Origin: Sandaracinus sp.
GTDB taxonomy: Bacteria > Myxococcota_A > Polyangia > Polyangiales > Houyiibacteriaceae
Direction: 5' to 3'
Length of the DNA: 64,000 nucleotides
Assembly: GCA_002699025.1 (NCBI GenBank)
Contig: PABA01000075.1
Location: forward strand, 1-64,000
Notes under the pieces: model-generated
What the model was told of the DNA's origin: nothing
Seen by the model: only the letters and a program-made list of their open reading frames with translations
Database searches by the model: none
Shown: positions 20,993 to 39,524 of the stretch, one piece after another
How positions within the stretch are numbered: position 1 is the first letter of the stretch
How the letters are laid out: every line of letters starts with the position of its first letter
Made by a program: the position numbers and the translations under genes

Positions 20993-22843
20993 ATGGGCAC
21001 TTCCGTCGCGCCGACCGCCCCGCCGACGAGCCCGAGCGTCGGCGAGGTCCTCGAGGGGCGTTACCGCCTCGAGGGCGAGCTCGGCGCGGGCGGGGTCGGG
21101 CAGGTCTTCCGCGCGACGCACCTCCGGCTCGGCCACTCGGTCGCGATCAAGATGCTGCACGAGACCTTCGTGCACAGCGCTCAGATGCGGCCGCGCTTCC
21201 TGCGCGAGGCGCAGGCCCTCGGCGCGTTGAAGCACCCGCACATCGTCACGCTCACGGACTTCGGCGTCGCCGGGGAGCGGCCCTACATCGTCATGGAGCT
21301 CCTCGAGGGGCGCTCGCTCCGCGCCGAGCTCGAGCACGGGCCCCTGCCGCCGGCGCGGGCCGCCCGCATCACGCGGCGCATCCTCGACGCGCTCGCCTTC
21401 GCGCATGCCCGCGGCTTCGTGCACCGCGACCTGAAGCCGGACAACGTCTTCCTCCTCGACCTGCCGAACGACGACGCCTTCCCGAAGCTCCTGGACTTCG
21501 GCTTCGTGAAGCTCACGGAGGAGACCGGGCCGACCCTCCCCCAGGGGGACGCGGCGGCCTTGACGCGCTCGGGCATCACCTTCGGGACGCCCGCCTACAT
21601 GTCGCCGGAGCAGGCCTCGGGCGCGCCGGCGGACGCGCGGAGCGATCTCTACGCGCTGGGCGTCGTGCTCTTCGAGATGCTCTGCGGGCGGCGGCCCTTC
21701 GAGGGGACGCTGCCGGAGATCGTGCGCCAGCACATCACGGCGCCGCTGCCGACCTTCAAGGCGCGGGGGGCGCTCGCGCGGGAGAGCCCGATGCTGCGGG
21801 CGGCGCTCGAGCGGGCGACGGCGAAGGAGCCGCGGGACCGCTACCCGAGCGCCGAGGCGATGCGCGAGGCGCTGGACGCGCTCGGCGGCGACTGGCTGCG
21901 GGCGGCGGACTCGGGCGTGGGCCCGGCGCCCTCGGGGGAGGCGCCGACGGTGGCGGCGGTGCCGGCGAGCAAGAAGGTGGCGCGGCGGCGTGGAGCGCTC
22001 GGGCCCGTGCTGGCGGCCTTCGGCGTGTGCGCGCTCGTCGGGGGCGTGGCCGTGGGCGTGGCGACGCTCGGGAGCTGGGGCGAGGAAGAGGACGCGGCCC
22101 CGCCGGCGATGGCGGCGGGGGGAGCGGCCGAGGGGAGCGCGAACGAAGGGGCCGGGCGGGCGACGGGGGACCCGAGCGCCGACGGACCGGCCGGGGCCGC
22201 GCCGAGCGGGGACGCGCCGAGCGGGGACGAAGCCGGCGGTGGCGCGGCGAGGAGCGACGAGCTCGGCGGTGGCGAAGCGAGCGGTGGCGAAGCGAGCGGT
22301 GGCGAAGCGAGCGGTGGCGAAGCGAGCGGTGACGAAGTCGGCGGCGAGACGAGCGGCGATGGAGCCCGCAGCGACGCGAGCGAGAGTGGCGACGAAGCCA
22401 GCGGCGCCCTCGATCCGAGCCGGAGCCCCTGGCGCACGCATCGGGCCGTCGGCCTGCTCAGCCGCACGCGGCGCCGCGTGCTCCGCGGCGGTGAGCTCAG
22501 CTCGGCGAACGAGCGCGGCCTGAAGCGCTTCGTGCGCAGCCACCGCGACGATCCCCGCCCGCACCTCCTGCTCGCCCAGGGCTACGCGAACCGCGGCTGG
22601 GCCACGGCGGCGCTCCAGCGCTACGACCTCGCGCTCCGCGTCGACGAGGAGGCGCGCCACGACCCGCGCATGATCCGCGACCTCGTCGCGCTCGCCGCGG
22701 ACTCCTCCGTGCAGGGCGAGGCCTCGGCGCGCCTCCACCGCCTCTACGGCGCCGCCGCGCGCCCCGCCGTCGAGTCCGCCCTCGGCGAAGCGACCGACCC
22801 GGACGTCCGGGCCCGCCTCGAAGCCCTCCGCGACGCGCTCTGA
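20993..22843 (+). CDS. Transmembrane Ser/Thr protein kinase
   Basis: This 616-residue Hanks-type kinase has a cytoplasmic catalytic domain at about 24-295: Gly loop GAGGVGQV (31-38), Lys53 in VAIKML, HRDLKPDN (144-151), DFG (168-170) and SPEQ in the P+1 region. It appears catalytically intact. A basic stretch and one transmembrane helix (about 334-358) lead to an exported part with a Gly/Glu/Ala/Ser linker containing GGEAS repeats and a helical TPR-like C-terminus (about 500-616). The architecture suggests sensing outside the membrane; the signal and targets are unknown. It is followed by a hairpin terminator. Confidence 0.95.
   Translation: MGTSVAPTAPPTSPSVGEVLEGRYRLEGELGAGGVGQVFRATHLRLGHSVAIKMLHETFVHSAQMRPRFLREAQALGALKHPHIVTLTDFGVAGERPYIVMELLEGRSLRAELEHGPLPPARAARITRRILDALAFAHARGFVHRDLKPDNVFLLDLPNDDAFPKLLDFGFVKLTEETGPTLPQGDAAALTRSGITFGTPAYMSPEQASGAPADARSDLYALGVVLFEMLCGRRPFEGTLPEIVRQHITAPLPTFKARGALARESPMLRAALERATAKEPRDRYPSAEAMREALDALGGDWLRAADSGVGPAPSGEAPTVAAVPASKKVARRRGALGPVLAAFGVCALVGGVAVGVATLGSWGEEEDAAPPAMAAGGAAEGSANEGAGRATGDPSADGPAGAAPSGDAPSGDEAGGGAARSDELGGGEASGGEASGGEASGGEASGDEVGGETSGDGARSDASESGDEASGALDPSRSPWRTHRAVGLLSRTRRRVLRGGELSSANERGLKRFVRSHRDDPRPHLLLAQGYANRGWATAALQRYDLALRVDEEARHDPRMIRDLVALAADSSVQGEASARLHRLYGAAARPAVESALGEATDPDVRARLEALRDAL
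22262..22340 (+). repeat. 15-bp tandem repeats encoding GGEAS
   Basis: ggtggcgaagcgagc recurs about four to five times almost perfectly in the periplasmic linker of the kinase. It is in frame and could vary in length. Confidence 0.8.
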
Positions 22844-22844
22844 C

Positions 22845-22865
22845 ACCCAGTGGAATCCACCGGGT
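22845..22865 (+). terminator. Hairpin after the kinase gene
   Basis: ACCCAGTGG, loop AAT, CCACCGGGT, then TT, starting two bases after the kinase stop. One mismatch in a 9-bp stem. A second hairpin, CCGGCC-AGG-GGCCGG, follows at 22879-22893 and may serve the converging LuxR gene. Confidence 0.6.
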
Positions 22866-22912
22866 TTCGCCAGAGCGGCCGGCCAGGGGCCGGGCTAGTA
22901 CCCCTGCCCGGG

Positions 22913-23485
22913 CTAGTTCGACGTGCCGGCGAGCCGCGCGACCAGCTCCACGCGCGAGTGCACGCCGAGCTTCGCGAAGATCCGCTTCATGTACGTGTTG
23001 ATCGTCGAGACCGTCAGGCCGGTCTTGCTCGCGATCTCCCGCGTGCTGCAGCCGCCGACGAGCAAGCGCACCACGTCCCGCTCCCGCGGCGTCAGCGGCG
23101 TCCGCTTCAGCGTCTCCTCGAGCGTCTCGTCCCCGCGGCGCCCGCCCTCGGTCGCGAGCCGGTCCGCGTAGGCCAGCCCGCGCGCGTAGAGCCGCGCGGC
23201 CCAGCGCGCGACGCGCAGCTCGTCCTCCGCCAACCGCTGCCGCTCCTCGAGCCAGAGCCCGAGCGCACCGACGATCTCCCGACCGTGCCTCAGCGGCAGC
23301 GTCACGGTGGCGCTCCCATCCGGCGCGGGCTCACTCGTCCAGCGCGTGCTCCCGTTCTGCTCGACCGTGTAGGCCGACGCCCGGACGGCGCGCGCCACGT
23401 TCTCGGCGCCTCGTTGCGGATACGTGCGGACCGGGTCCAGCGCGAGCAGACCTTCCGCGATGTCCATGATGTGAAATAGCGACAC
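22913..23485 (-). CDS. LuxR-family transcriptional regulator
   Basis: This 190-residue protein starts at GTG, preceded by a G-rich GGGAG ribosome-binding site. The C-terminal 60 residues are a LuxR/FixJ-type helix-turn-helix: LTPRERDVVRLLVGG, then STREIASKTGLTVSTI and VHSRVEL. The N-terminal 110 residues may be a small GAF-like sensor: ATVTLPLRHGREIVGALGLW resembles the GAF core strands. There is no receiver domain with conserved Asp, so it is not a classical response regulator. It is divergent from the cNMP-binding gene across 187 bases, so the two may share control. Targets unknown. Confidence 0.85.
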   Translation of the reverse strand: MSLFHIMDIAEGLLALDPVRTYPQRGAENVARAVRASAYTVEQNGSTRWTSEPAPDGSATVTLPLRHGREIVGALGLWLEERQRLAEDELRVARWAARLYARGLAYADRLATEGGRRGDETLEETLKRTPLTPRERDVVRLLVGGCSTREIASKTGLTVSTINTYMKRIFAKLGVHSRVELVARLAGTSN

Positions 23486-23659
23486 GGCTCCCCCCCATCC
23501 CGGGCCGGCCCCCCAGCCAGGATCGCTTGATGACCTCCATCATGCACAGAAACACCGTTCACCCTCAACCGGGGAGGGGTCTTTTCTCGAACGACACCCC
23601 GGGGAAGCCCCCGAAGACGAGGTTTCGCGCGCTTCTGGCGGTGAGTGGCGGGACTTCGA

Positions 23660-23665
23660 TACCAT
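23660..23665 (+). promoter_or_regulatory. Candidate -10 element for a leaderless start
   Basis: TACCAT ends seven bases before the GTG at 23673. No good ribosome-binding site lies between. Confidence 0.3.
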
Positions 23666-23672
23666 CGCCGCC

Positions 23673-24155
23673 GTGAGCGACGCCGCCGAACGGGAGCGCA
23701 TCGTGGACGCGCTGGCGAAGATCCACCTCTTCGAGGGGATCACGCCCGCGGGCCTGCGCGAGATCGCGGCCATCGCCAGCGAGGAGTCGTTCCGCCTCGG
23801 GGACGTCATCTTCAAGGAGGGCGACACGGGCAGCGCGCTCTACCTGATCCTCGACGGGAAGGTGCGCATCTCCCGCGAGGTGAGCGGCATGGGCGAGGAG
23901 GCCCTCGCCGTGCTCGGGGCCGGCGACGCCTTCGGCGAGATGTCGCTGATCGACGCGGCGCCCCGGAGCGCGGACGCGCGCGTGCACGAGCGCTGCCGCC
24001 TGCTCGTGATCAGCAAGGACGCCCTCGAGGACCTGCTCTTCCTGAACCGCGACCTCGCCTACGAGATCCTCTGGAACTTCGTGAAGATCTTGAGCGCGCG
24101 GCTCCGCGAGACGAACGACAAGATGACGTTCCTCTCGGTCACCGGGAAGTTCTGA
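23673..24155 (+). CDS. Stand-alone cyclic nucleotide-binding domain protein
   Basis: This 160-residue protein is almost entirely a CAP/PKA-type cNMP-binding beta-roll (about 15-140). The phosphate-binding cassette FGEMSLIDAAPRSADARV (89-106) has the expected Gly-Glu and Arg, so nucleotide binding is plausible. There is no helix-turn-helix or enzyme domain, unlike Crp. Similar lone domains in myxobacteria may regulate partners through contact. It starts at GTG and is probably monocistronic. Ligand (cAMP, cGMP or other) and partner are unknown; the divergent LuxR regulator is the only contextual lead. Confidence 0.88.
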   Translation: MSDAAERERIVDALAKIHLFEGITPAGLREIAAIASEESFRLGDVIFKEGDTGSALYLILDGKVRISREVSGMGEEALAVLGAGDAFGEMSLIDAAPRSADARVHERCRLLVISKDALEDLLFLNRDLAYEILWNFVKILSARLRETNDKMTFLSVTGKF

Positions 24156-24247
24156 GGCCGGTCAGAGCGCGGAGGGCCCGCCCCGCTCCGGTCCGCGGAG
24201 TCGATGCGGCGCCGACGCGCGGGCCGTCGTGGGGGGAGCCGGAGGTT

Positions 24248-24264
24248 CGCCGCCCGAGGCGGCG
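24248..24264. terminator. Hairpin between converging genes
   Basis: CGCCGCC-CGA-GGCGGCG, a perfect 7-bp stem, lies between the cNMP-binding gene and the sixA-like stop. It could work in either direction. No T-run follows. Confidence 0.45.
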
Positions 24265-24272
24265 CGGGCGGC

Positions 24273-24770
24273 TCAGCGGCCCGCGGTGGCGAGGTCGCGG
24301 TGGAGCTGGAGCGTCTCCGGGTCGAGCATCCACTCGAAGCGGCCGCCGGCCTCGCCGAGCTCCACGCAGCACACGCTCCCGGTACGGAAGCCGGGCATGT
24401 GCCCCTGCCCCGAGAGGTGCCCGGCGAGGACGCGCACCTTGGGCGCGTGCGTGACCAGCGCCACCACCGCGTCCGCCGGCATCTTCTCGAGCACCGCGAG
24501 CGCCTGCGCCGTCGTCCCGTACTCGACGGCGAGCGGTGGGTGCACCTCGAGGGGCCCCTCGAAGCCGCCGACGCCCGCCAGGATCTCCGCCGTCTGCACC
24601 GCGCGTACGAGCGGGCTGGTGAAGATCCGCGTCGGCGCGGCCTCGCCGGCCACCCGCTCGGCGACGCGCCGCATGCGCGCCCGGCCCGCCGCCGTCAGCC
24701 AGCGCGTGTCGTCGGTCGGCGCCTCGTAGGGATCGACGGCGGTGGAGTGGCGGACCAGCAGCACCTTCAT
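24273..24770 (-). CDS. sixA: SixA-like phosphohistidine phosphatase
   Basis: This 165-residue histidine-phosphatase-superfamily protein has the catalytic RHS motif at residues 7-9 (VRHSTAVD), an Arg in FTSPLVRAVQTAEIL and a second His in ALVTHAPKV. The length matches E. coli SixA (161), which removes phosphate from His residues of phosphorelay or PTS proteins. No histidine kinase or PTS gene is adjacent, so the target is unknown. A TATGCT box eight bases before the ATG suggests leaderless expression. A general phosphoglycerate-mutase-like phosphatase is the alternative. Confidence 0.85.
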   Translation of the reverse strand: MKVLLVRHSTAVDPYEAPTDDTRWLTAAGRARMRRVAERVAGEAAPTRIFTSPLVRAVQTAEILAGVGGFEGPLEVHPPLAVEYGTTAQALAVLEKMPADAVVALVTHAPKVRVLAGHLSGQGHMPGFRTGSVCCVELGEAGGRFEWMLDPETLQLHRDLATAGR

Positions 24771-25007: not shown

Positions 25008-28000
25008 ATGGGATCGACGAGCGCGCGCATCGAGGGAGCACCGCGGAGGGCGGCGCGAGCGGGAACCGGCCTCTTCGGGCTCGTGATCCTGCTCGCGGCC
25101 TGCGGCGGGAGCACCGAGACCCTGGGCGAGATCAGCGTGGCGACGCTCGAGCCGATCCGCGGCGACGGCGCGCGCATGCGCGTGGCGGCCGGGGAGAGCG
25201 TCGAGAGCGGCTCGCTGGCGCGGCTGCGGCTCGACGCCGGTCCCTGGCTGCTGCTCGGCGACGCGGCGCTCACGATCGGGGAGGAGGGCGAGGTGCAGCT
25301 CGCTTCGGGTCGGGCCTTCGTGCACGTGCCCGCGGACGGCGCGCTCGTCCTGCGGGTCGGCGAGGCGCAGCTCACGGCGCGCGACGCGGCCTTCTCGATC
25401 GAGGACGGCGCGCTCTACGTCGTGGACGGAGAGGTCAGCCATCGCCAGGGCGAGCAGCTCCGGCGCGTGCGGGCCGGCGAGCGGCTCGCGGGGGGCGCCG
25501 TCGAGGCGGCCGCGCTCTGGGAGGACTGGACCGGTGGGCTCGCGCGACCGGGGCCGGGGCTGGCCGGCGACGTCGCCATCGGCGCGCTCGAGGGGCGCGT
25601 GCCGGATGAGATCGGGCAGGCGCGCTGGCCGCTGGTCATCCGCCGCCTCGACGTGAAGGTGCGTGTCGTCGAGGACCTCGCGATCACGGAGGTCGAGCAG
25701 GTCTTCTTCAACCCGGCGAGCGAGACCGTCGAGGGGCTCTACCGCATCCGCGTGCCGCGCGGGGCCGTGCTCCAGCGCTTCGCCGTCGACCGGGACGGGC
25801 GCCTCGTGGACGGCTACGTGCGCGAGAAGGCGCAGGCGCGGCAGGCCTACGAGGCGCAGGTCTACCGCGGCTCGACGCTCGACCCGGCGCTCCTCGAGTG
25901 GGTGGCCCCCGGGGCCTACCAGGCGCGCATCTACCCGATCGCGCCGGGGGAGACGCGGCGCATCGCCGTGCGCTACGCCGAGTGGCTCGAGCGCCCCGGC
26001 GCGCCGAGCGAGGAGGGCGAGCTCGCCCCGCGCGTCTACCGCTTCCCCATGGCGCCGGGAGGCGCGACGCCGCCGCACGTGCAGGAGCTCGCCTTCGAGG
26101 CGGACCTCTCGGAGGCGGGCGCGGGGCGCGTGCGCGCGGGCTTCGGGGCCGAGGTCGACGGCGACGTGGTGCGCCTCCGCAAGAGCGACCTCCGCCCGCG
26201 GGCCGACCTGGTGCTCGAGCTCTGGGATGGCGAGGAGCGCGCGGAGGGGCTCCGGGCCTGGCGCGCCGAGCACGATCCGCCCCCGCGCGATCCGCGGGCC
26301 GGCGCCATGCCCGACGAGCAGGAGCTCGACTACGTCTACGTGCCGGTCGTGCTGCCCGAGCGCCTCTTCGCCGAGGCCGGCGGCGCGCAGGGCATGGACC
26401 TGGTCGTCGTCGCGGACGTCTCGGCGGGCACCGATCGCTCGCACCTCGAGCTCGGCCGGAGCGTCATCGAGGCGCTCGCCGCGCACCTCGAGCAAGGCGA
26501 CCGGGTGGCGATCCTCGCCGGCGACGTCTCGCTCCGGCCCCTGGCGGGCGACGGCGCGCTCGGGCCCGCGGAGCCGGCGCGGGTGGAGCGGCTCCTCGAC
26601 GCGCTGGCCCGCGAGCCGGCCGGCGGCGCGAGCGACCTCGGCGGCGCCCTCGCGGAGGCGGCGGCGCTGCTGGATCCGGAGAGGCATGGCGTCGTCGTCT
26701 ACGTGGGCGACGGCGCGCCGACCGTGGGCGAGCTCGGCGCCGAGGCGCTCCTCGAGCGGGTCCAGCGCCTGCCCCATCCGCTGCGCGCCTACGGCGTGGG
26801 CGTGGGCGGCGACGCGAACCTCGACCTTCTCGACGCGGTGACGCGCGGCGGCGGGCTGGCGCTCCGCGTGGAGACGCGCGCGGCCGCGGCGGAGGCGGCC
26901 CTCGAGCTGCTCGCCCACGCGCGCCGGCCGGCGGCGCAGCGCGTGAGCGTCGAGCTCGCTGGCGCCGAGCAGGTCTTCCCGCGGGCGGCGACGGATGTCG
27001 TGCGCGGAGCCGTGCTCCCGGTGGTCGGGCGCGTCGAGGAGAGCCTCCCCTCGGAGATCGTCGTGCGCGGCCTGGTCGCCGGGAGCGAGTTCGAGGAGCG
27101 GCTGGCGATCCGCGAGGTGCGGGTCGAGGACGAGGGCGACCTCCGGCTCCGCTGGGCCGGGGAGCGGCTCCGGCAGCTCCTGCTCGGGGGCGGGCAGCGC
27201 GAGGAGATCGCCGACCTCGGCGTGCGCTACGGGCTGATCACGCCCTTCACCAGCTTCTACGTGCCGAGCGCCGCCGAGCTCGCTTCGCTCGGGCCCGCGG
27301 CGCGCGAGCTCTACCGCGATCTGAGGCACCTCCGCGCGCGCCCGTCGAGCGTGCCTGCGCTCCTGCCGACGACGGCGCTCTTCGCGCTCCCGGGCTGCAC
27401 CCTGAGCGACGCCGAACCGCCGGCCTCGGAGGCCGCCTCGAGCGCGGCGCCCGAGCCGGAGGAGGTCGAAGAGGAGGCCTGGGCCGACCAGGAGGGCCAG
27501 ATGGGCGCGAACCAGGACCGGGGCGAGGCGACCGCCAACCGCTACGCGATCCAGGGGCCCTCGGACGACATGGATCCGCAGATGGCGCGCGAGCAGGCGC
27601 GCCCGACGACCGCGGCGCGTCGCCCGGCGCCCCCGCCCGCGGCCAGCGCCGAGGCCGAGCCCGCGCCGGAGGTCGCCACGGCGGCCGTCGACGAGGTGCC
27701 GAACGAGCCCGCGCCGGGGGGCCTCGACGGGCTCGCGGACGGGAGCGGCTCGAGCGCCGGCTTCGGCGGCCTCGGGCTCCGCGGGAGCGGGAGCGGCGGG
27801 GGCGGCGCGAGCGCCATGGGCTCGCGCACCAGCAGCACGCGCGGCCCGCGCCGGTCGCGCCGCCGCGCGCGCCCGCGGGGCGCCGAGGAGCGCGAGCGGA
27901 GCGAGGCGGACGAAGCGCAGGCGCGGATCGTCGGAGCGCTGGGGGCGCTGAGCGGCGAGGAGGGCGGGAGCGTGCTCGAGGACATCCTCGGGGGCGACGC

Positions 28001-29444
28001 CCGCGATCTCGACGTCCCGAACGGCTGGACCGGCCGGGCGGACCTGACGGTCTCCCCGAACGCCGCGCGCATCGTCGTCGAGCTCCAGCAGCACCACGAC
28101 GCGAGCGCCCACCGCACGCGCCGCTGCTCCGACGCCGCCGACCTGCTCCTCGACGACCGCGTCGCCCTCTGGCGCGAGCGCCTCGGCCGCGCGAGCGGCG
28201 TGAGCGGCTTGCTCGAGGTCTACCGGGAGGCCCGCCGCGACTGCGAGCTCCCGCGCTGGCGCGACCGGCGCGCGCTCCTGAACCTGATGCTTCGCCACGC
28301 CGGCAACATCCGCCGCATGGTGCAGCTCTACCGCTTCCTCGACGACGGGAGTGCCCGGAGCTACCTCCGCGGGGCCATCCTCCGGCGCGTCCGCAGCCCC
28401 GCCGACCTGCGCGTCGCGCGCGAGGCCTTCGGCGCCGTCGCCAACGATCCGGAGCTCGTCGCCCAGGTGCTCGAGCGCGCCGGCGAGGGGCCCGGGCGCA
28501 TCCGCGCGCTGCGCCGGCTCACCGAGCAGTTCCCCGGCAACGTGGACCTGAAGCTCCAGCTCCTCGAGGAGCTCGAGCGCCAGGGACGCGTCGCCGAGGC
28601 GCGCCGGCTGGCCGCCGAGCTCCGCGCCGATCCGCTCACGGACGCGGGCGTGCGCACGGCCATCGGCGAGATGTTCCTGCGCTTCGAGGACGAGCCGGAG
28701 GCGCGCCGCGTCTTCAGCGAGATCGTCGAGTTCGCGCCGGAGGACGCGCTCGCGCGCCGGCGCCTCGGCGACCTCTACCGGGCCCACGGCTGGTTCGAGG
28801 ACGCCTACCGCCAGTACCAGACGCTCGCCGCCATCACGCCCGACGACCCGAGCGTGGCGCTCCTCCTCGCGCAGGCGGCGGCGGGGGCCGGGCGCGTCGA
28901 CGAGGCGCTCCGGCTCGAGCAGGGGCTCGCGGCCACCAGCGACCCGGGCGCCGTCGGCGGCCTCGGGCGCGTGGCGCTCCTCTGGTCGTCGGTGCGCTTC
29001 GCCGAGCTCCGCAAGGAGGCGCGCGCCGAGGGCGACGCCGAGCGGCTCGAGGCGCTCGAGGCGCGCATGCGGCGGAGCGGCGTGCTCCGGCAGGCGAGCG
29101 GGCTCCGCGCCACGCTGACCTGGTCGCACCCGGACGCGGGCCTCTCGCTCTGGGCCGCGCACCCGCGCCTCGGTCTGACGCGGCCGACCGATCTCGCGCC
29201 CGAGTACGGCCTCGAGGCCTTCGACGTCGAGGAGCAGGAGGACGGTCGCTACGAGCTCGAGGTGCGCCGGGCCGAGCCCGCGCGCCAGCGGCACCGCACG
29301 GACGTCGTGGCGAAGCTGGTCGTCGTCTGGAACGAAGGCCAGGAGGACGAGAAGGTCGAGGTGCGCGAGCTGCGCTTCGACGGGGAGCGGGAGCGACTCG
29401 CCTTCCACCTCGAAGGTCGCGAGCTCGAGGAGGTGAGCCGATGA
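25008..29444 (+). CDS. Giant lipoprotein A: FecR-like, VIT, vWA and helical-repeat domains
   Basis: This 1,478-residue protein starts at the ATG behind GGGGAG. A signal ending in LLAAC lipidates Cys32. Domains in order: a FecR-like beta region (about 45-160), a VIT domain (211-327), a vWA domain (462-640) opening with MDLVVVADVSAGTD, a Gly/Ser/Arg-rich disordered region (about 870-990), and a long helical TPR-like tail (1038-1400). The MIDAS motif is DxSxG, not DxSxS, so metal binding may be weakened. VIT plus vWA recalls inter-alpha-trypsin inhibitor heavy chains. It overlaps its paralogue downstream (ATGA). It is probably surface-exposed; ligand and role unknown. Confidence 0.85.
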   Translation: MGSTSARIEGAPRRAARAGTGLFGLVILLAACGGSTETLGEISVATLEPIRGDGARMRVAAGESVESGSLARLRLDAGPWLLLGDAALTIGEEGEVQLASGRAFVHVPADGALVLRVGEAQLTARDAAFSIEDGALYVVDGEVSHRQGEQLRRVRAGERLAGGAVEAAALWEDWTGGLARPGPGLAGDVAIGALEGRVPDEIGQARWPLVIRRLDVKVRVVEDLAITEVEQVFFNPASETVEGLYRIRVPRGAVLQRFAVDRDGRLVDGYVREKAQARQAYEAQVYRGSTLDPALLEWVAPGAYQARIYPIAPGETRRIAVRYAEWLERPGAPSEEGELAPRVYRFPMAPGGATPPHVQELAFEADLSEAGAGRVRAGFGAEVDGDVVRLRKSDLRPRADLVLELWDGEERAEGLRAWRAEHDPPPRDPRAGAMPDEQELDYVYVPVVLPERLFAEAGGAQGMDLVVVADVSAGTDRSHLELGRSVIEALAAHLEQGDRVAILAGDVSLRPLAGDGALGPAEPARVERLLDALAREPAGGASDLGGALAEAAALLDPERHGVVVYVGDGAPTVGELGAEALLERVQRLPHPLRAYGVGVGGDANLDLLDAVTRGGGLALRVETRAAAAEAALELLAHARRPAAQRVSVELAGAEQVFPRAATDVVRGAVLPVVGRVEESLPSEIVVRGLVAGSEFEERLAIREVRVEDEGDLRLRWAGERLRQLLLGGGQREEIADLGVRYGLITPFTSFYVPSAAELASLGPAARELYRDLRHLRARPSSVPALLPTTALFALPGCTLSDAEPPASEAASSAAPEPEEVEEEAWADQEGQMGANQDRGEATANRYAIQGPSDDMDPQMAREQARPTTAARRPAPPPAASAEAEPAPEVATAAVDEVPNEPAPGGLDGLADGSGSSAGFGGLGLRGSGSGGGGASAMGSRTSSTRGPRRSRRRARPRGAEERERSEADEAQARIVGALGALSGEEGGSVLEDILGGDARDLDVPNGWTGRADLTVSPNAARIVVELQQHHDASAHRTRRCSDAADLLLDDRVALWRERLGRASGVSGLLEVYREARRDCELPRWRDRRALLNLMLRHAGNIRRMVQLYRFLDDGSARSYLRGAILRRVRSPADLRVAREAFGAVANDPELVAQVLERAGEGPGRIRALRRLTEQFPGNVDLKLQLLEELERQGRVAEARRLAAELRADPLTDAGVRTAIGEMFLRFEDEPEARRVFSEIVEFAPEDALARRRLGDLYRAHGWFEDAYRQYQTLAAITPDDPSVALLLAQAAAGAGRVDEALRLEQGLAATSDPGAVGGLGRVALLWSSVRFAELRKEARAEGDAERLEALEARMRRSGVLRQASGLRATLTWSHPDAGLSLWAAHPRLGLTRPTDLAPEYGLEAFDVEEQEDGRYELEVRRAEPARQRHRTDVVAKLVVVWNEGQEDEKVEVRELRFDGERERLAFHLEGRELEEVSR

Positions 29445-32400
29445 GGCGCGCGATCGTCACGGGGCTCCTCTTCGCCCTCGCCTGCGGCGGCGCCGAGGCG
29501 CCCCCGCCTTCCCCCACGGTCGCCACGGCCGAGCCCGTGCGCGGCGGCTTCGCCATCGAGCGCGAGGGCTACACCTGGAACGTGCGCGGCCCGGTCCGCG
29601 TCGAGAACGAGGCGGCGGCCATCACCGCCGAGGACGGCCGCGGCGCGCTCCAGCTCGACGGCGGCGGCTGGGTGCTGCTGGACCGGCAGAGCCGCGCCAC
29701 GCTCACGCTCGAGGCGCTCACGCTGCAGACGGGCCGCGTGTGGGTCGACGCGCGCGACGTGGAGGTGCGCGTGCAGACCGAGGAGGGCGAGCTCCGCGGC
29801 GTGGACGCCACCTTCGCCGTGGACCGCACGGGCGAGGGCACGGAGGTCTACTGCGGCTCGGGCGAGGTCGCCTGGGTCGCCGGCGGCGAGGACGGGCGCC
29901 TGGCCCAGGGCGAGACGCTCGCCATGCGGGGCGGTGGCGCCGAGGTCGCGCCGGCCGAGCTCTGGAACGACTGGACCGGGGGCCTCGCGGATCCGACGCC
30001 GCGCCACGAGGCCGTCCCCGGCTACGTGGGCGTGCTCGCCGGGCGCGCGCTCCACGAGCTCGGCAAGGCGCGCCGCCCGCTCTCGCTCCGCGCCCACGAG
30101 GTGGACGCCAGCGTGCGCGGCGACCTCGCCGAGACCGAGGTCGTACAGACCTTCTTCAACGCCGAGAGCCAGGCCCTCGAGGCCGAGTACCGCATGCGCG
30201 TCCCCGAGGGCGCCATCGTCGCCGGCTTCGCCGTGGACCTCGGCGGCGGCTGGGTGGAGGGCGAGATCCGTCCGCTCGCCACGAGCGGCTACGCCCTGAG
30301 CTGGGCGCCCTCGAGCGCCGAGACGAGCCGCCTCTCCTACGACGGGCCCGGGCGCCTGCGCGCGCGCGTGCACCCCATCGGCCCGGGCCAGACGGTGCGC
30401 GTGAAGGTGCGCTACGTGGAGTGGCTCGACCGGGAGGGGGACATGCGCAGCTACGCCTACCCGATGGTCACGGAGGGCGCCGCGCCGCCCCTGGTCGGCG
30501 AGCTCCGCCTGCGCCTCGACGCCAGCGAGGCGAACGTCGGCGCCTTCCGCGCCGGCATGGGAGCGCGGGTCGAGGAGCAGGCCGTGATCGTGCGGCGGAG
30601 CGACTACCGCCCGCTCGCCGACTTCGTCGTGGACCTGGTCGACCCGGAGGAGGTCGAGCGCGCCGAGGGCGCGGCCGCGTACGTCGTCGACGCGCCGGAC
30701 GCCGCGCCGGGGCAGGAGGCCGCCGACGGGGACGAGCGCTTCGTGCTCTTCGACGTGCCGACGAGCGAGATCGTGGCGGAGCTCGAGGAGGACGCCTGGG
30801 AGGATCCGGGGCTCGACCTGGTGGTCGTCGTGGACGCCTCCGGGGCCACCGAGGCCGAGGACCTCGAGCTCGCCCGCGCCGTCGTCGAGACCGTGCTCCA
30901 GCAGCTCGCCCCGAGCGATCGCGTCGCGCTCCGCGTGGGCGACGTGACGGCGCGGGCCCCCGAGGGCACGGACGCGGGGCTCCAGCCGGCGACGGACGAG
31001 ACCCGCGAGGCGCTCCTCGGCGCGCTGGCCGAGGTGCCGCTCGGCGGGGCGACCGACCTGGCCGCCGTGCTCCGCGACGCCGCCGACGTGGTCGCCGGCA
31101 AGCCGCGCGGCGCCGTGCTCTACGTGGGCGACGCGATCCCCACGACCGGCTCCATGGACACGCCGGCCATCCGCCGGGCGCTCGCGACGCTCGAGGACGC
31201 GCCGCGCTTCTTCGGCCTGGCGGCCGGCGAGGGCGCGAACCTCGATCTCCTCCGCGCGCTCTTCGGGGAGGACCAGGCCTTCGCCGTCGCCGAGCGCACG
31301 GAGGCCTCCCGCACGGTGATGCGCCTGCTCGCCGACGCGGCGCGGCCGATGCTGCGCAACGTCGAGGTCGACCTCGGGCCGGCCGTCGAGCGCGTCTACC
31401 CGCGGCCGCCGATCAGCGTCGCCGAGGGCGCGCCGCTCCGGCTCGTCGGGCGGCTCCGCGACGACCTGCCGACCGAGATCGAGGTGCGCGGCACGCGCGA
31501 CGCGCGCCCCTTCGAGCTCACCATGAAGGTGCACGCCGAGGCGCTGGAGGACGGGGGCGACATCCGGCGGCGCTGGGCCTCGGCGCGGCTCCAGGAGCTC
31601 CTCGCGGAGGACGCGGGGCGCGAGGCGCTGGTCGAGCTCGGCGTGCGCTTCGGCGTGCTCACGCCCTGGACCTCCTTCGTCGCCGTCGGCGGCAAGGTCG
31701 AGGGGAGCTACCCGCCCGTGCGTGGCTTCGACGTGGATCCGCGCACCATCGACTGGGCCCTCGGCGGCGGCGCGGCCTCGCGGCGCATGCCCGAGCGCGG
31801 CGGCTGGCGGCGGCGCGTGCCCGAGGCCTCCGCCGAGGAGGCGCCCGCCGTGGCCGTCGAGCGCACCTGGGTCTCGCGGGTGCGGGACGTCGCCGACGCA
31901 GGTGGGGGAAGCGGCGATGGGGGCCTCGCGCGCGCGGCCGTGAGCCGGGCCCTGAGCCGCGGCACGCGCGGGCCGAACGCCTGCTTCGAGCGCCGCCTCA
32001 CCGTGCGCCCCGATCTCCGCGGCAACGTCGCCGTCGAGGTCGAGGTCGAGGGCGACGGCACGGTGAAGGACGCGAAGCTCCTCTCCTCGAGCCTCGGCGC
32101 GGCCGACGTCGACGCCTGCATCCTCACGGAGGTCCGGGGCCTCCGCTTCCCGGCGACCGGCGGGGCGACCGTCTCCGTGACCCACACCTACCGCTTCGAC
32201 GGCGGCGGCCGGGCCATCGGCGTGCGCCGCCAGTGCTCGGACGCCTCGCGCCAGTCCCTCGAGGTGCGCGCGGGGCTCTGGCGGGAGCGGCTCGCGGCGA
32301 ACGCCGGCGTGCGCGGCGCGCTGAGCGTGTGGCGGGAGGCCCAGCGCCAGTGCGAGCTCTCGAGCTGGCGCGCGCGGCGGACGCTCCTCGACCGGATGAT

Positions 32401-33547
32401 CCGCCACGTCGGCGGCGTGCCCGGGCAGGTGCGGCTCTACCAGGCGCTCGCGGGGAACGCGGCCATCGCGCGCTACCTGAGGCGGGCGATCCTGCGGAAC
32501 GTGCGCACGCCGCGCGACGTGGTGGCCGTGCGGGCCGGGCTGGGGCTCGACGCGCCGGTGGACTGGGACGTCTTCGCGCGGCTCTGGAAGCGGAACGACG
32601 ACCCCGCGGCGCGGCTGCGGCTCGTGCGGCGCTGGCTCGAGGTGCTGCCCGAGGAGATGGATCTGCGGCTCCGGCTGCTCGCGCTGCTCGAGGAGACCGG
32701 CGCCCTCGCCGAGGCCAAGCGCGTGGCGCGGGAGCTCCGGGCCGACCCGCTGGCCGACGCGCGCGTGCGGACGGCCGTGGGCGAGTTCTGGCTGCGGCAG
32801 GAGGACGAGGCCGAGGCGCGGCGCGTCTTCAGCGAGCTCGTCGAGCGGACGCCCTACGACCCCTGGGCGCGGCGGAGACTCGGGGATCTCTACCGGGCGC
32901 ATGGCTGGTACGACGACGCCTACCGGGAGTACGGCGCGCTGGCGCGGCTCCGGCCGGACGACCCGGCGGTGCTGCTGATGCTCGCGCGGGCGGCGGCGGG
33001 GGCCGGGCGCGTGGACGAGGCGCTGAGGCTCGAGCAGCGGCTCGGCGAGTCCGTCGAGGAGGGCGCGCAGGGGGGCGCGGCCGGCGTGGCGCGGCTCTGG
33101 TCGACCGTGCGGCTGGCGGCGCTGAAGGGGGAGGCCGACGCGGCGACGCGGGCGATGATCCGGCGGCGCGAGCGGCAGACCGGGGTGCTGCGGGAGCCGC
33201 CGGCGGTGCTGGCGGCGCTGACCTGGGCGCACCCGGAGGACCGGCCCGAGCTGCACGTGAAGCTGCCGAGCACGCCCGAGGACGTGGAGTGGGAGCGCGC
33301 GGAGGTGCAGGCGGCGGCGCACGGCATGGAGGCGCAGGCCGTGCCGCAGCGGGCGGAGGGCGAGGCGCTGCGCTTCGAGGTGCGGCGCGTCGAGGAGGAC
33401 GCGCTGCGGGACCTCGAGGCGACGCTGACGGTGATCGTCGGGCTCGGGAGCGAGGGGGAGCGCGTGCATCGCGTGCCGCTGGTGCTCGACCGGGAGACGC
33501 GGAAGGCGACGTTCGTGCTGGAGGGGGGCGAGCTGCGGCGGGAGTGA
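29441..33547 (+). CDS. Giant lipoprotein B: FecR-like, VIT, vWA, AgmX-type and helical-repeat domains
   Basis: This 1,368-residue paralogue starts at an ATG overlapping the upstream stop (ATGA), behind GGAGG. A short signal ends in FALAC (Cys15). Order: FecR-like region (about 30-165), VIT (216-330), vWA (458-620) with LDLVVVVDASGA, again lacking the second MIDAS Ser. Residues about 830-920 resemble the AgmX/PglI C-terminal (TonB-like) domain: ACFERRLTVRPDLRGNVAVE and VSVTHTYRF. The helical tail (928-1368) aligns with A through matching phrases such as RRLGDLYRAHGW. AgmX-type domains occur in gliding-motility proteins of Myxococcus. Function is inferred only as a surface or envelope complex. 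Confidence 0.85.
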   Translation: MRRAIVTGLLFALACGGAEAPPPSPTVATAEPVRGGFAIEREGYTWNVRGPVRVENEAAAITAEDGRGALQLDGGGWVLLDRQSRATLTLEALTLQTGRVWVDARDVEVRVQTEEGELRGVDATFAVDRTGEGTEVYCGSGEVAWVAGGEDGRLAQGETLAMRGGGAEVAPAELWNDWTGGLADPTPRHEAVPGYVGVLAGRALHELGKARRPLSLRAHEVDASVRGDLAETEVVQTFFNAESQALEAEYRMRVPEGAIVAGFAVDLGGGWVEGEIRPLATSGYALSWAPSSAETSRLSYDGPGRLRARVHPIGPGQTVRVKVRYVEWLDREGDMRSYAYPMVTEGAAPPLVGELRLRLDASEANVGAFRAGMGARVEEQAVIVRRSDYRPLADFVVDLVDPEEVERAEGAAAYVVDAPDAAPGQEAADGDERFVLFDVPTSEIVAELEEDAWEDPGLDLVVVVDASGATEAEDLELARAVVETVLQQLAPSDRVALRVGDVTARAPEGTDAGLQPATDETREALLGALAEVPLGGATDLAAVLRDAADVVAGKPRGAVLYVGDAIPTTGSMDTPAIRRALATLEDAPRFFGLAAGEGANLDLLRALFGEDQAFAVAERTEASRTVMRLLADAARPMLRNVEVDLGPAVERVYPRPPISVAEGAPLRLVGRLRDDLPTEIEVRGTRDARPFELTMKVHAEALEDGGDIRRRWASARLQELLAEDAGREALVELGVRFGVLTPWTSFVAVGGKVEGSYPPVRGFDVDPRTIDWALGGGAASRRMPERGGWRRRVPEASAEEAPAVAVERTWVSRVRDVADAGGGSGDGGLARAAVSRALSRGTRGPNACFERRLTVRPDLRGNVAVEVEVEGDGTVKDAKLLSSSLGAADVDACILTEVRGLRFPATGGATVSVTHTYRFDGGGRAIGVRRQCSDASRQSLEVRAGLWRERLAANAGVRGALSVWREAQRQCELSSWRARRTLLDRMIRHVGGVPGQVRLYQALAGNAAIARYLRRAILRNVRTPRDVVAVRAGLGLDAPVDWDVFARLWKRNDDPAARLRLVRRWLEVLPEEMDLRLRLLALLEETGALAEAKRVARELRADPLADARVRTAVGEFWLRQEDEAEARRVFSELVERTPYDPWARRRLGDLYRAHGWYDDAYREYGALARLRPDDPAVLLMLARAAAGAGRVDEALRLEQRLGESVEEGAQGGAAGVARLWSTVRLAALKGEADAATRAMIRRRERQTGVLREPPAVLAALTWAHPEDRPELHVKLPSTPEDVEWERAEVQAAAHGMEAQAVPQRAEGEALRFEVRRVEEDALRDLEATLTVIVGLGSEGERVHRVPLVLDRETRKATFVLEGGELRRE

Positions 33548-33743: not shown

Positions 33744-35399
33744 ATGCTTCGCTTCTCCCTCAGCTTCGTGATCGCGCTCGCCGCGGTCGCCCCCGCGCGC
33801 GCCCAGCCGGGGGAGGGCGGCGCGGCGCCGTCCGAGTCGCCGCGCCCCGCCGCGCCCCCGAGCGAAGCCGCGACCGAGCGCGCCGCCGTCTCCTCGGCTG
33901 ACGGCGCGCCCTCCGACTCGCCGATCGCCCGGGAGGGAGCGCGCGACCCCGCGCCCTCCGAGCTCGAGGCCGAGCGCGCCGCCACCGAGCGCGCCGCCAG
34001 CACCCGCCCCGCCAGCACCCGCCCCGCCGCCACCCGCGACCCCGACTACCTCCGCGCCTTCTTCGAGGAGGTCCTCTTCCTCGCTGGCGGCACCGCCTGG
34101 TACTGGATCGAGAAGGACGACAACTCGGTCGACTGGGACTACGACGCCTGGGCGCAGCGCTTCGAGCGGGAGGCCTTCCGCTTCGACAACAACCGCTTCG
34201 CCATCAACTGGGTCTTCCACCCCTTCAGCGGCTCCGCCTTCCACGGCTTCGCCCGCGCCAACGACCTCAGCGTCGGCGCCGCCTTCCTCTACGGCTTCTT
34301 CACCTCCTTCGCCTGGGAGTGGCTCCTCGAGTTCCGCGAGCGCGTCTCCATCAACGACCAGATCGCCACGCCGCTCCCGGGCCTCGCCATCGGCGAGTTC
34401 TTCATCAAGCTCGGCCGCTACCTCCACGCCCGCGCGCTCACCCCCGCCCGCCGCGCCGCGTCCTGGACCCTCGGCTTCCCGGTCCAGATGCACCGCGCCT
34501 GGGACGACCGCGCCCCCGACCCCGACGAGCGCGCGCAGCTCCACGGCGCCTTCCGCGTGGCCTACGGCGCGACCCTCGCCCGCGGGGACACGGGCCAGCG
34601 CTTCGGGCTCCACACCATGGCCTTCGAGGGCCGCCTCGCCGACCTCCGCGGCTACCTCCGCCCGGGCCGCCGCCGCACCTTCTTCGCCGACGCCGAGCTC
34701 GCCGACCTGCGCGCCCGCGCCACCCGCGGCCCCGGCGGAGGCGGCTTCGAGCTCGAGGCCGACACCGTCGTCCTCGGCCTGCACGCGCAAGACCTCGAGG
34801 ACGCGCCCGGCGGCCTCCGCGGCGCCGCCGGCCTCGTCGGCGCCTCCATCGCCTACCGCTACGCCCGCCAGTCCTACGCCGACTGGACCGACCGGCTCGG
34901 CGTCGTGCACCTCCCCGGTCTCGCGCTCGAGGGGCACCTCTTCGGCGGCCCCGTCGCCCTCCACCTCGGGGCGCGCGTGCACGCCGACTTCGCGAGCGTC
35001 CACGCGAAGGCCCCCTTCGACGCCTGGTTCGCCGCCCAGCCCGAGGGCACGCGCGCCAAGACCATCCTCGAGCGCGAGGGCTACTACTTCGGCTGGGGCC
35101 TCAGCACCGAGAGCCGCGTCGCGCTCGCGCTCGGGCCCGTCGAGCTCGGCGTGCGCACGCGCTTCGGCAGCTGGTGGTCCGACGAGGGCCTCGACCGGAG
35201 CCAGGAGGAGGTGAACGCCGACGTCCGCGTCCGCGACCGCGCCCTCGACGTCGCCACCTGGGCTCGCCTCGACCTGCCCCGCGGCCTCCAGCTCGAGGCC
35301 CGCCTCGACCTCACGCGCCGCGACACGGACGTCGCCGCCAGCGTCCGCACCTCCCGCACCCTTCGCCGCGCCACCCTCCTCCTCGCCTGGCGCCGCTGA
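33744..35399 (+). CDS. DUF3943 outer-membrane-type protein
   Basis: This 551-residue protein has a signal peptide ending near ARAQ (about 1-20) and a low-complexity Ala/Glu/Ser/Arg region to about 95, including TRPASTRPA repeats. The core carries the DUF3943 signature: FDNNRFAINWVFHPFSGSAF, SVGAAFLYGFFTSFAWEW and INDQIATPLPGLAIGEFF. The C-terminal third has alternating strands, fitting a beta-barrel or membrane-associated lipid-active protein. DUF3943 proteins are uncharacterised but usually envelope-located. A sigma-54-type promoter lies just upstream, two kb before an FHA-type sigma-54 activator gene. No terminator is visible downstream. Confidence 0.85.
   Translation: MLRFSLSFVIALAAVAPARAQPGEGGAAPSESPRPAAPPSEAATERAAVSSADGAPSDSPIAREGARDPAPSELEAERAATERAASTRPASTRPAATRDPDYLRAFFEEVLFLAGGTAWYWIEKDDNSVDWDYDAWAQRFEREAFRFDNNRFAINWVFHPFSGSAFHGFARANDLSVGAAFLYGFFTSFAWEWLLEFRERVSINDQIATPLPGLAIGEFFIKLGRYLHARALTPARRAASWTLGFPVQMHRAWDDRAPDPDERAQLHGAFRVAYGATLARGDTGQRFGLHTMAFEGRLADLRGYLRPGRRRTFFADAELADLRARATRGPGGGGFELEADTVVLGLHAQDLEDAPGGLRGAAGLVGASIAYRYARQSYADWTDRLGVVHLPGLALEGHLFGGPVALHLGARVHADFASVHAKAPFDAWFAAQPEGTRAKTILEREGYYFGWGLSTESRVALALGPVELGVRTRFGSWWSDEGLDRSQEEVNADVRVRDRALDVATWARLDLPRGLQLEARLDLTRRDTDVAASVRTSRTLRRATLLLAWRR

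Positions 35400-35805: not shown

Positions 35806-39511
<3,706 letters not shown>

Positions 39512-39524
<13 letters not shown>

Follow-up and report, generated by a model that had tools for sequence, protein, structure and literature searches.

We analysed a window of 64,000 nucleotides from Sandaracinus sp. (GenBank assembly GCA_002699025.1, contig PABA01000075.1, positions 1 to 64,000; "the window" always means this whole stretch). It carries two adjacent genes on the forward strand, here termed A (25008..29444) and B (29441..33547), which belong to a real, ancient and conserved two-gene system of envelope proteins resembling the inter-alpha-inhibitor heavy chains (ITIH). The best reading of the pair is that of a predicted heteromeric periplasmic scaffold or receptor. 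Using open reading frames, Pfam and NCBIfam profiles and tree positions, gene A was assigned to the A clade as a lipoprotein of 1,478 amino acids with the order FecR-like, VIT, vWA, linker, TPR and C-terminal beta domain, and gene B to the B clade as a lipoprotein of 1,368 amino acids with the order FecR-like, VIT, vWA, AgmX, TPR and C-terminal beta sandwich. The start codon of B overlaps the stop codon of A by 4 base pairs in the sequence ATGA (29441..29444). A first-pass annotation, made from the letters of the DNA, had described two overlapping genes of these lengths as a diverged pair with comparable helical tails; its coordinates were exact, and the relationship was borne out. A and B aligned with 39% identity over 758 columns on the N-terminal side (E = 2e-114) and with 49% identity over 447 columns in the tail (E = 8e-83). 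Judged by these alignments, A and B are paralogues across nearly their whole length.

Distribution and age of the gene pair

In a first survey 76 related genomes were searched, and several families within the same order yielded close A-B pairs. A second survey, a scan of named genomes, yielded 68 loci labelled mostly as Myxococcales, Sandaracinaceae, Polyangiaceae and Deltaproteobacteria, with Minicystis rosea and a Sorangium metagenome-assembled genome among the carriers. We were aware of the fact that the two surveys share some genomes and that the sets are not independent. Calling by A-clade and B-clade profiles gave 57 A-B pairs among the 68 loci, and the conserved pairing that the first-pass annotation had wished to see surveyed was thus found. 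In all 57 pairs the two genes share a strand and A comes first. An in-frame B start compatible with a 4-base-pair overlap of the A stop was present in 45 of them, a count which took the start nearest to the A stop, so that in a few pairs the real B start may be further downstream. Intact B genes always had an A gene directly upstream; the exceptions were located at contig ends, apart from the divergent locus L103, where the second gene scored nearer to A and was assignable to neither A nor B. A very divergent pair of an A-type and a B-type gene (L154) was detected in a genome of another order of the same class. No recurring family of flanking genes was found across the pair loci and only the A-B adjacency was kept, indicating that selection keeps A and B together.

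In a sample of the whole phylum, 26 of 235 genomes showed a match at E 1e-30 or better, single-copy relatives included. These single-copy relatives formed the outgroup in our trees, in which A and B fell into separate clades derived from one duplication preceding the split of the families. The same main organism groupings recurred inside the A clade and inside the B clade; support for the deepest nodes was moderate to low in the larger tree. Conservation across the order excludes chance. According to these sequence comparisons the A-B pair is ancient and has been kept adjacent in Polyangia since an old duplication.

Domain architecture and predicted folds

The VIT domain was found strongly in both proteins by Pfam PF08487 (A, 25641..25976, E 5.5e-22; B, 30089..30415, E 1.2e-14), and TPR was detected in both, with the tail of A covering 28110..29057. 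The vWA domain was weak by sequence (0.088 in A, 0.0012 in B), and FecR, likewise weak, stayed below the cut-off in either protein (A, 0.053; B, 1.6e-4). No full-length model fitting A or B was returned from NCBIfam or Pfam. All 26 A and B family proteins examined carried VIT, while TPR_19 was detected in 24 of them and FecR in 19.

Based on 52 aligned A sequences, AlphaFold2 gave a model of A residues 36-756 (mean predicted local distance difference test, pLDDT, 91.1; predicted template modelling score, pTM, 0.90) and, based on 53 B sequences, one of B residues 742-1368 (mean pLDDT 85.8, pTM 0.80). The best matches of the A model in the PDB were inter-alpha-inhibitor HC1, wild type and D298A (6fpy, 6fpz; Foldseek E 1e-30 to 2e-29). 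The match to 6fpy_B (E 1.1e-30) extended over 607 columns, with VIT followed by vWA in an ITIH-like arrangement. VIA-align superimposed 497 residues of the A model and HC1 (Z 20.9) with a root-mean-square deviation (rmsd) of 6.0, for which reason the domain orientation may differ. The vWA domain of A (model residues 424-606, 26382..26930) aligned to many vWA domains, among them 8fz4_A (Z 21.8, 169 residues, rmsd 2.2), and the FecR-like beta domain (25125..25508), weak in Pfam, matched the putative anti-sigma factor 4m0n (Foldseek 2.3e-6). The B model starts out disordered and then shows the TonB_C-like AgmX domain. It continues with a TPR superhelix (32240..33181), which had Foldseek matches to consensus TPR and to the TPR of O-GlcNAc transferase, and ends in a C-terminal beta sandwich (33206..33544; model residues 515-626, pLDDT mostly >90). 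At the level of predicted structures, AlphaFold2 and Foldseek settle the domains that are weak by sequence, vWA and FecR. The domain set read in the first-pass annotation (FecR-like, VIT, vWA and a helical-repeat tail) agrees with the profiles and with these high-confidence models.

The MIDAS motif of the vWA domains

Residues of the metal ion-dependent adhesion site (MIDAS) were counted by alignment column in 60 A and 58 B proteins. In the window, motif 1 of the vWA domain reads D-V-S-A-G in A (D470-G474, 26415..26429), with Gly in place of the second Ser of DxSxS, and D-A-S-G-A in B (D465-A469, 30833..30847), with Ala in this place; DVSAG and DASGA share the alignment column. Window A carries Ser at the MIDAS Thr position. 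A complete five-ligand MIDAS (DxSxS, T, D) is present neither in A nor in B of the window, the other four positions being kept. Across the 60 A proteins the first Asp, the first Ser and the last Asp were invariant, the Thr position showed Thr in 57 proteins and Ser in 3, and in none was the second Ser kept (Ala 45, Gly 12, Asp 3, Ser 0). The 58 B proteins also kept the first Asp, the first Ser and the last Asp, with Thr (42) or Ser (16) at the Thr position; the second Ser was present in 27 and replaced by Ala in 17, by Gly in 12 and by Glu in 2. The B protein of the divergent pair L154 reads DLSGSI. The second Ser was absent in all seven single-copy relatives and present in the distant paralogue L084.

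As far as the alignment columns indicate, the loss of the second Ser is old and universal in A and lineage-specific in B. For the common ancestor of A and B, repeated losses or a regain in some B proteins would both fit the tree. We considered simple decay as the cause of the double change and rejected it, the other four ligands being kept in 118 of 118 proteins. The first-pass annotation had called both MIDAS motifs degenerate. DxSxG/A indeed stands in the same column in both proteins; the change concerns one ligand only, however, and with a canonical motif in 27 of 58 B proteins it is a derived state in this lineage.

AgmX domain, membrane anchors and cysteines

Within the window the AgmX/PglI C-terminal-type (TonB_C-like) domain NF033768 was found over its cut-off in B only (31931..32197; 60.9 bits, cut-off 40), with no listed match in A. 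Using a profile built here, AgmX was detected in all 58 B proteins and in 34 of 60 A proteins. The A proteins without it were scattered over the A tree, indicating repeated loss. A low-complexity Gly/Ser/Arg linker in window A (27276..28097, approximately residues 757-1030) occupies the place of AgmX in B, and in other A orthologues this site still contains AgmX in full. Within the linker, AGFGGLGLRGSGSGGGG (27756..27806) matches the pre-AgmX glycine linker of the orthologues (FGFGGLGLRGTGRGGGGTGEGTIGLG). On this comparison the linker of window A is the scar of an AgmX domain. That B alone carries AgmX, as first annotated, is therefore true for this genome but secondary, and the disordered stretch of A placed opposite to it is a remnant of the same domain.

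The linker of A further contains an internal lipobox-like LPGC with Cys797 (27387..27398), preceded by a hydrophobic stretch. Such a motif, a hydrophobic stretch and then GC (e.g., LFALPGC), was also observed after the vWA domain in A orthologues and in the single-copy relatives L071-L077. Linker cysteines outside AgmX were counted in 36 of 60 A proteins, 7 of 7 single-copy relatives and 3 of 58 B proteins; the motif may mark a former fusion, or its cysteine may be lipidated as a second site or form a disulfide.

Both window proteins start with a lipobox, LLAAC in the signal peptide of A (25008..25103, Cys32) and LFALAC in B (Cys15). A lipobox-like N-terminus was recognised by script in 55 of the 57 A proteins having an N-terminus and by eye in the other two. 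For B, 55 anchors were examined, and 33 showed a lipobox and 21 a single N-terminal transmembrane helix. The designation as lipoproteins in the first-pass annotation consequently fits the two window proteins but is not general for B. The transmembrane-anchored B proteins belong to one large clade (L108-L110, L113, L118, L122, L124-L127, L129, L130, L136, L140, L147-L153), in which A stays a lipoprotein. A link of anchor type to MIDAS state in B (21 of 21 transmembrane proteins canonical, 27 of 33 lipobox proteins not) was rejected as independent evidence, because the transmembrane proteins form one clade whose lipobox members (L107, L114, L119, L135, L145) are also canonical.

A pair of cysteines in the tail (Cys1040 and Cys1079 in window A; Cys932 and Cys971 in window B, at or near the start of the TPR superhelix) was present in 60 of 60 A and 56 of 58 B proteins and was lost as a whole in the remaining two. 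In these B proteins, L117 and L102, Arg and Gly stand in place of the cysteines, as expected for disulfide partners. That A and B are periplasmic is suggested by their FecR-like and TonB_C-like domains, by the conserved cysteine pair with its joint loss and by the interchange of lipid anchors and transmembrane helices among B proteins.

A putative heteromer and its alternatives

We consider it somewhat probable that the two genes form a translationally coupled unit and that their products assemble into an obligate heteromeric complex of the envelope, with A and B as its two subunits. Anatomy, folds, pairing, gene order, overlap, duplication and invariant residues are shown by the sequences and models; a heteromer of A and B as such is likely, and its interface, its place in the periplasm and the partner of AgmX are inferred. 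Each protein would be anchored at its N-terminus, by lipid or in some lineages by one transmembrane helix for B, and would project into the periplasm. Each carries a VIT-vWA body like that of ITIH heavy chains and integrin beta chains, and its TPR superhelix and terminal beta cap may bind partners. In HC1, self-association depends on the MIDAS and on Mg or Mn, and the metal of one molecule was suggested to be engaged by an acidic side chain of its partner (PMC7170535). By analogy with this MIDAS- and metal-dependent dimerisation, the vWA faces may mediate the assembly of A and B. In the likely ancestral state the MIDAS of B would be complete and would bind an acidic ligand. This ligand might come from A, in which the second Ser is always missing from the MIDAS. 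In the lineage of the window, with the second Ser also missing in B, the contact would involve either a metal site that is incomplete or a surface without metal. The AgmX domain of B, the only arm never lost, may tie the complex to another envelope component. A more far-reaching version, which we regard as doubtful, sees in the pair a bacterial two-subunit counterpart of integrin and ITIH: an obligate periplasmic A-B heterodimer with a vWA domain of A permanently one MIDAS ligand short, an ancestrally complete B, and a metal- or ligand-gated assembly that would drive the TPR and TonB_C-like arms across the envelope.

Several observations weigh against the heteromer in this form. Extra A copies without an adjacent B were found at L049, L051, L053, L137 and L144, and A may therefore also work by itself or as a homomer, or several A proteins may share a single B. 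The genomes concerned also contain the pair, or else a B gene located at a contig end. Since half of the B proteins are without the second Ser, a MIDAS-centred interface cannot be universal, and without this residue metal binding may fail altogether. Co-inheritance and coupling can also result from shared regulation. In lipoprotein sorting of Myxococcus xanthus, Lys at position +2 directs to the inner membrane and Ala at +7 to the matrix (PMC3222651). Window A (CGGSTET) and B (CGGAEAP) have neither, with Gly at +2 in both, which would leave the outer membrane as the default if the M. xanthus pattern applies. A and B may also be exposed at the surface.

The extra A genes in genomes that also have the pair would equally suit co-transcribed paralogues with related but separate jobs, acting alone or as homomers, with vWA as a structural module and the operon serving common regulation only. 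Single-copy proteins of the same layout are widespread in the phylum, and tandem duplicates commonly remain adjacent for some time. Here, however, adjacency, order and the 4-base-pair overlap outlast divergence at the order level and all other neighbours change, and an intact B was never clearly found without A, so that we see separate jobs as possible but rather unlikely. Another reading takes A as a pseudo-receptor with a crippled MIDAS that regulates B by occupying or capping its ligand face. It finds a precedent in Cachd1, a VWA protein with a disrupted MIDAS which still acts on the target and competes with its intact relative alpha2delta-1 (PMC6231325), and it would explain a second Ser missing in 60 of 60 A proteins and kept in many B proteins. 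As B is also without this Ser in the present genome and in many relatives, no intact partner would be left to regulate there, and the other four ligands of A, needless for a mere cap, are conserved; by this analogy such a role appears improbable. Finally, vWA lipoproteins combined with an AgmX/PglI-type domain recall the gliding apparatus of M. xanthus, with its vWA lipoprotein CglB and its Glt complex, and A and B might by comparison serve gliding or predation as surface adhesins. GltG and GltJ (PglI, AgmX) are parts of that machinery, and a TonB-like motif occurs in GltG (PMC3169522). The GltG model NF033760, however, scored 47.5 bits against a cut-off of 650 and matched the AgmX part only, which rejects membership. 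At least ten other matches covering only the AgmX region of B exist elsewhere in this genome, marking the domain as not specific for gliding, the genes immediately around the pair include none recognised as a motility gene, and transmembrane-anchored B orthologues misfit surface display. A role as surface adhesins is accordingly judged very unlikely.

Genes surrounding the pair

Directly downstream of B a DUF3943 protein is encoded (33744-35399), which is not a conserved neighbour. Signalling genes are dense at 20993-24770 and 35893-39524, with two Ser/Thr kinases, LuxR-type and cyclic nucleotide (cNMP)-binding proteins, a histidine phosphatase and an FHA-sigma54 activator. The gene neighbourhood was tried as a clue to function and rejected: nothing beyond the pair is conserved, and the DUF3943 gene, the FHA-sigma54 activator and the kinases are only local. 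A search for sigma-70 promoters and terminators found none, a result which is uninformative at 74% GC. Outside the pair the same genome has three further VIT loci (C82, C169, C179), of which C169 encodes a FecR-VIT-vWA-TPR protein with a canonical DASQS.

Comparison with known systems and implications

The top fold match of A, ITIH1 (6fpy, 6fpz), has VIT, vWA and a subsequent beta region ordered and arranged as in A. In contrast to A and B, it is a secreted human proteoglycan chain with an intact MIDAS and without FecR, AgmX and TPR, and it is not a lipoprotein. ITIH heavy chains carry a C-terminal DPHF motif for the chondroitin sulfate ester; this motif was absent in A, B and all 126 bacterial proteins checked. 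Among curated bacterial models, TIGR03788, the marine proteobacterial sortase target, came closest in the vWA region (84.6 bits for A, 97.4 for B). Membership was rejected, both scores lying far below the cut-off of 551.65. No LPxTG-type signal (LPx[TA][GS]) was found in A or B, which unlike these sortase targets are anchored at the N-terminus. With GltG and GltJ, B shares an AgmX/PglI C-terminal domain over the curated cut-off; there, however, AgmX ends a membrane-embedded transducer, whereas B is anchored at its N-terminus and carries AgmX after vWA and before TPR. Cachd1 and alpha2delta are vWA relatives with one disrupted and one intact MIDAS and gave strong structural matches to the vWA domain of A. 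They differ as eukaryotic channel subunits with Cache domains whose genes are not neighbouring, and the MIDAS of Cachd1 is described as highly disrupted and not as one ligand short. The same domain order was found in the single-copy FecR-VIT-vWA-TPR relatives of Myxococcota (L071-L077 and most of L155-L165). The closer clade of them shares the missing second Ser and the tail cysteine pair. These relatives are, however, single genes, AgmX was absent in 7 of 7 tested, and many are membrane-anchored. The more distant L084 of the present genome has a canonical DxSxS and is without the tail cysteine pair.

Pairs of integrin-like vWA proteins are well understood in animals and, to our knowledge, hardly studied in bacteria. 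The first-pass annotation knew of no described system of this form, and in the open-access literature on VIT, vWA, AgmX and myxobacteria we likewise found no account of the A-B pair, which is weak evidence as open-access sources only were covered. Polyangia are known for predation and large genomes, and a pair kept since before the families of Polyangiales diverged adds a conserved component to their envelope. The natural series of a complete MIDAS in some B proteins and a site one ligand short in all A proteins makes the role of a four-ligand MIDAS testable, and the pair is present in a cultured organism, Minicystis rosea.

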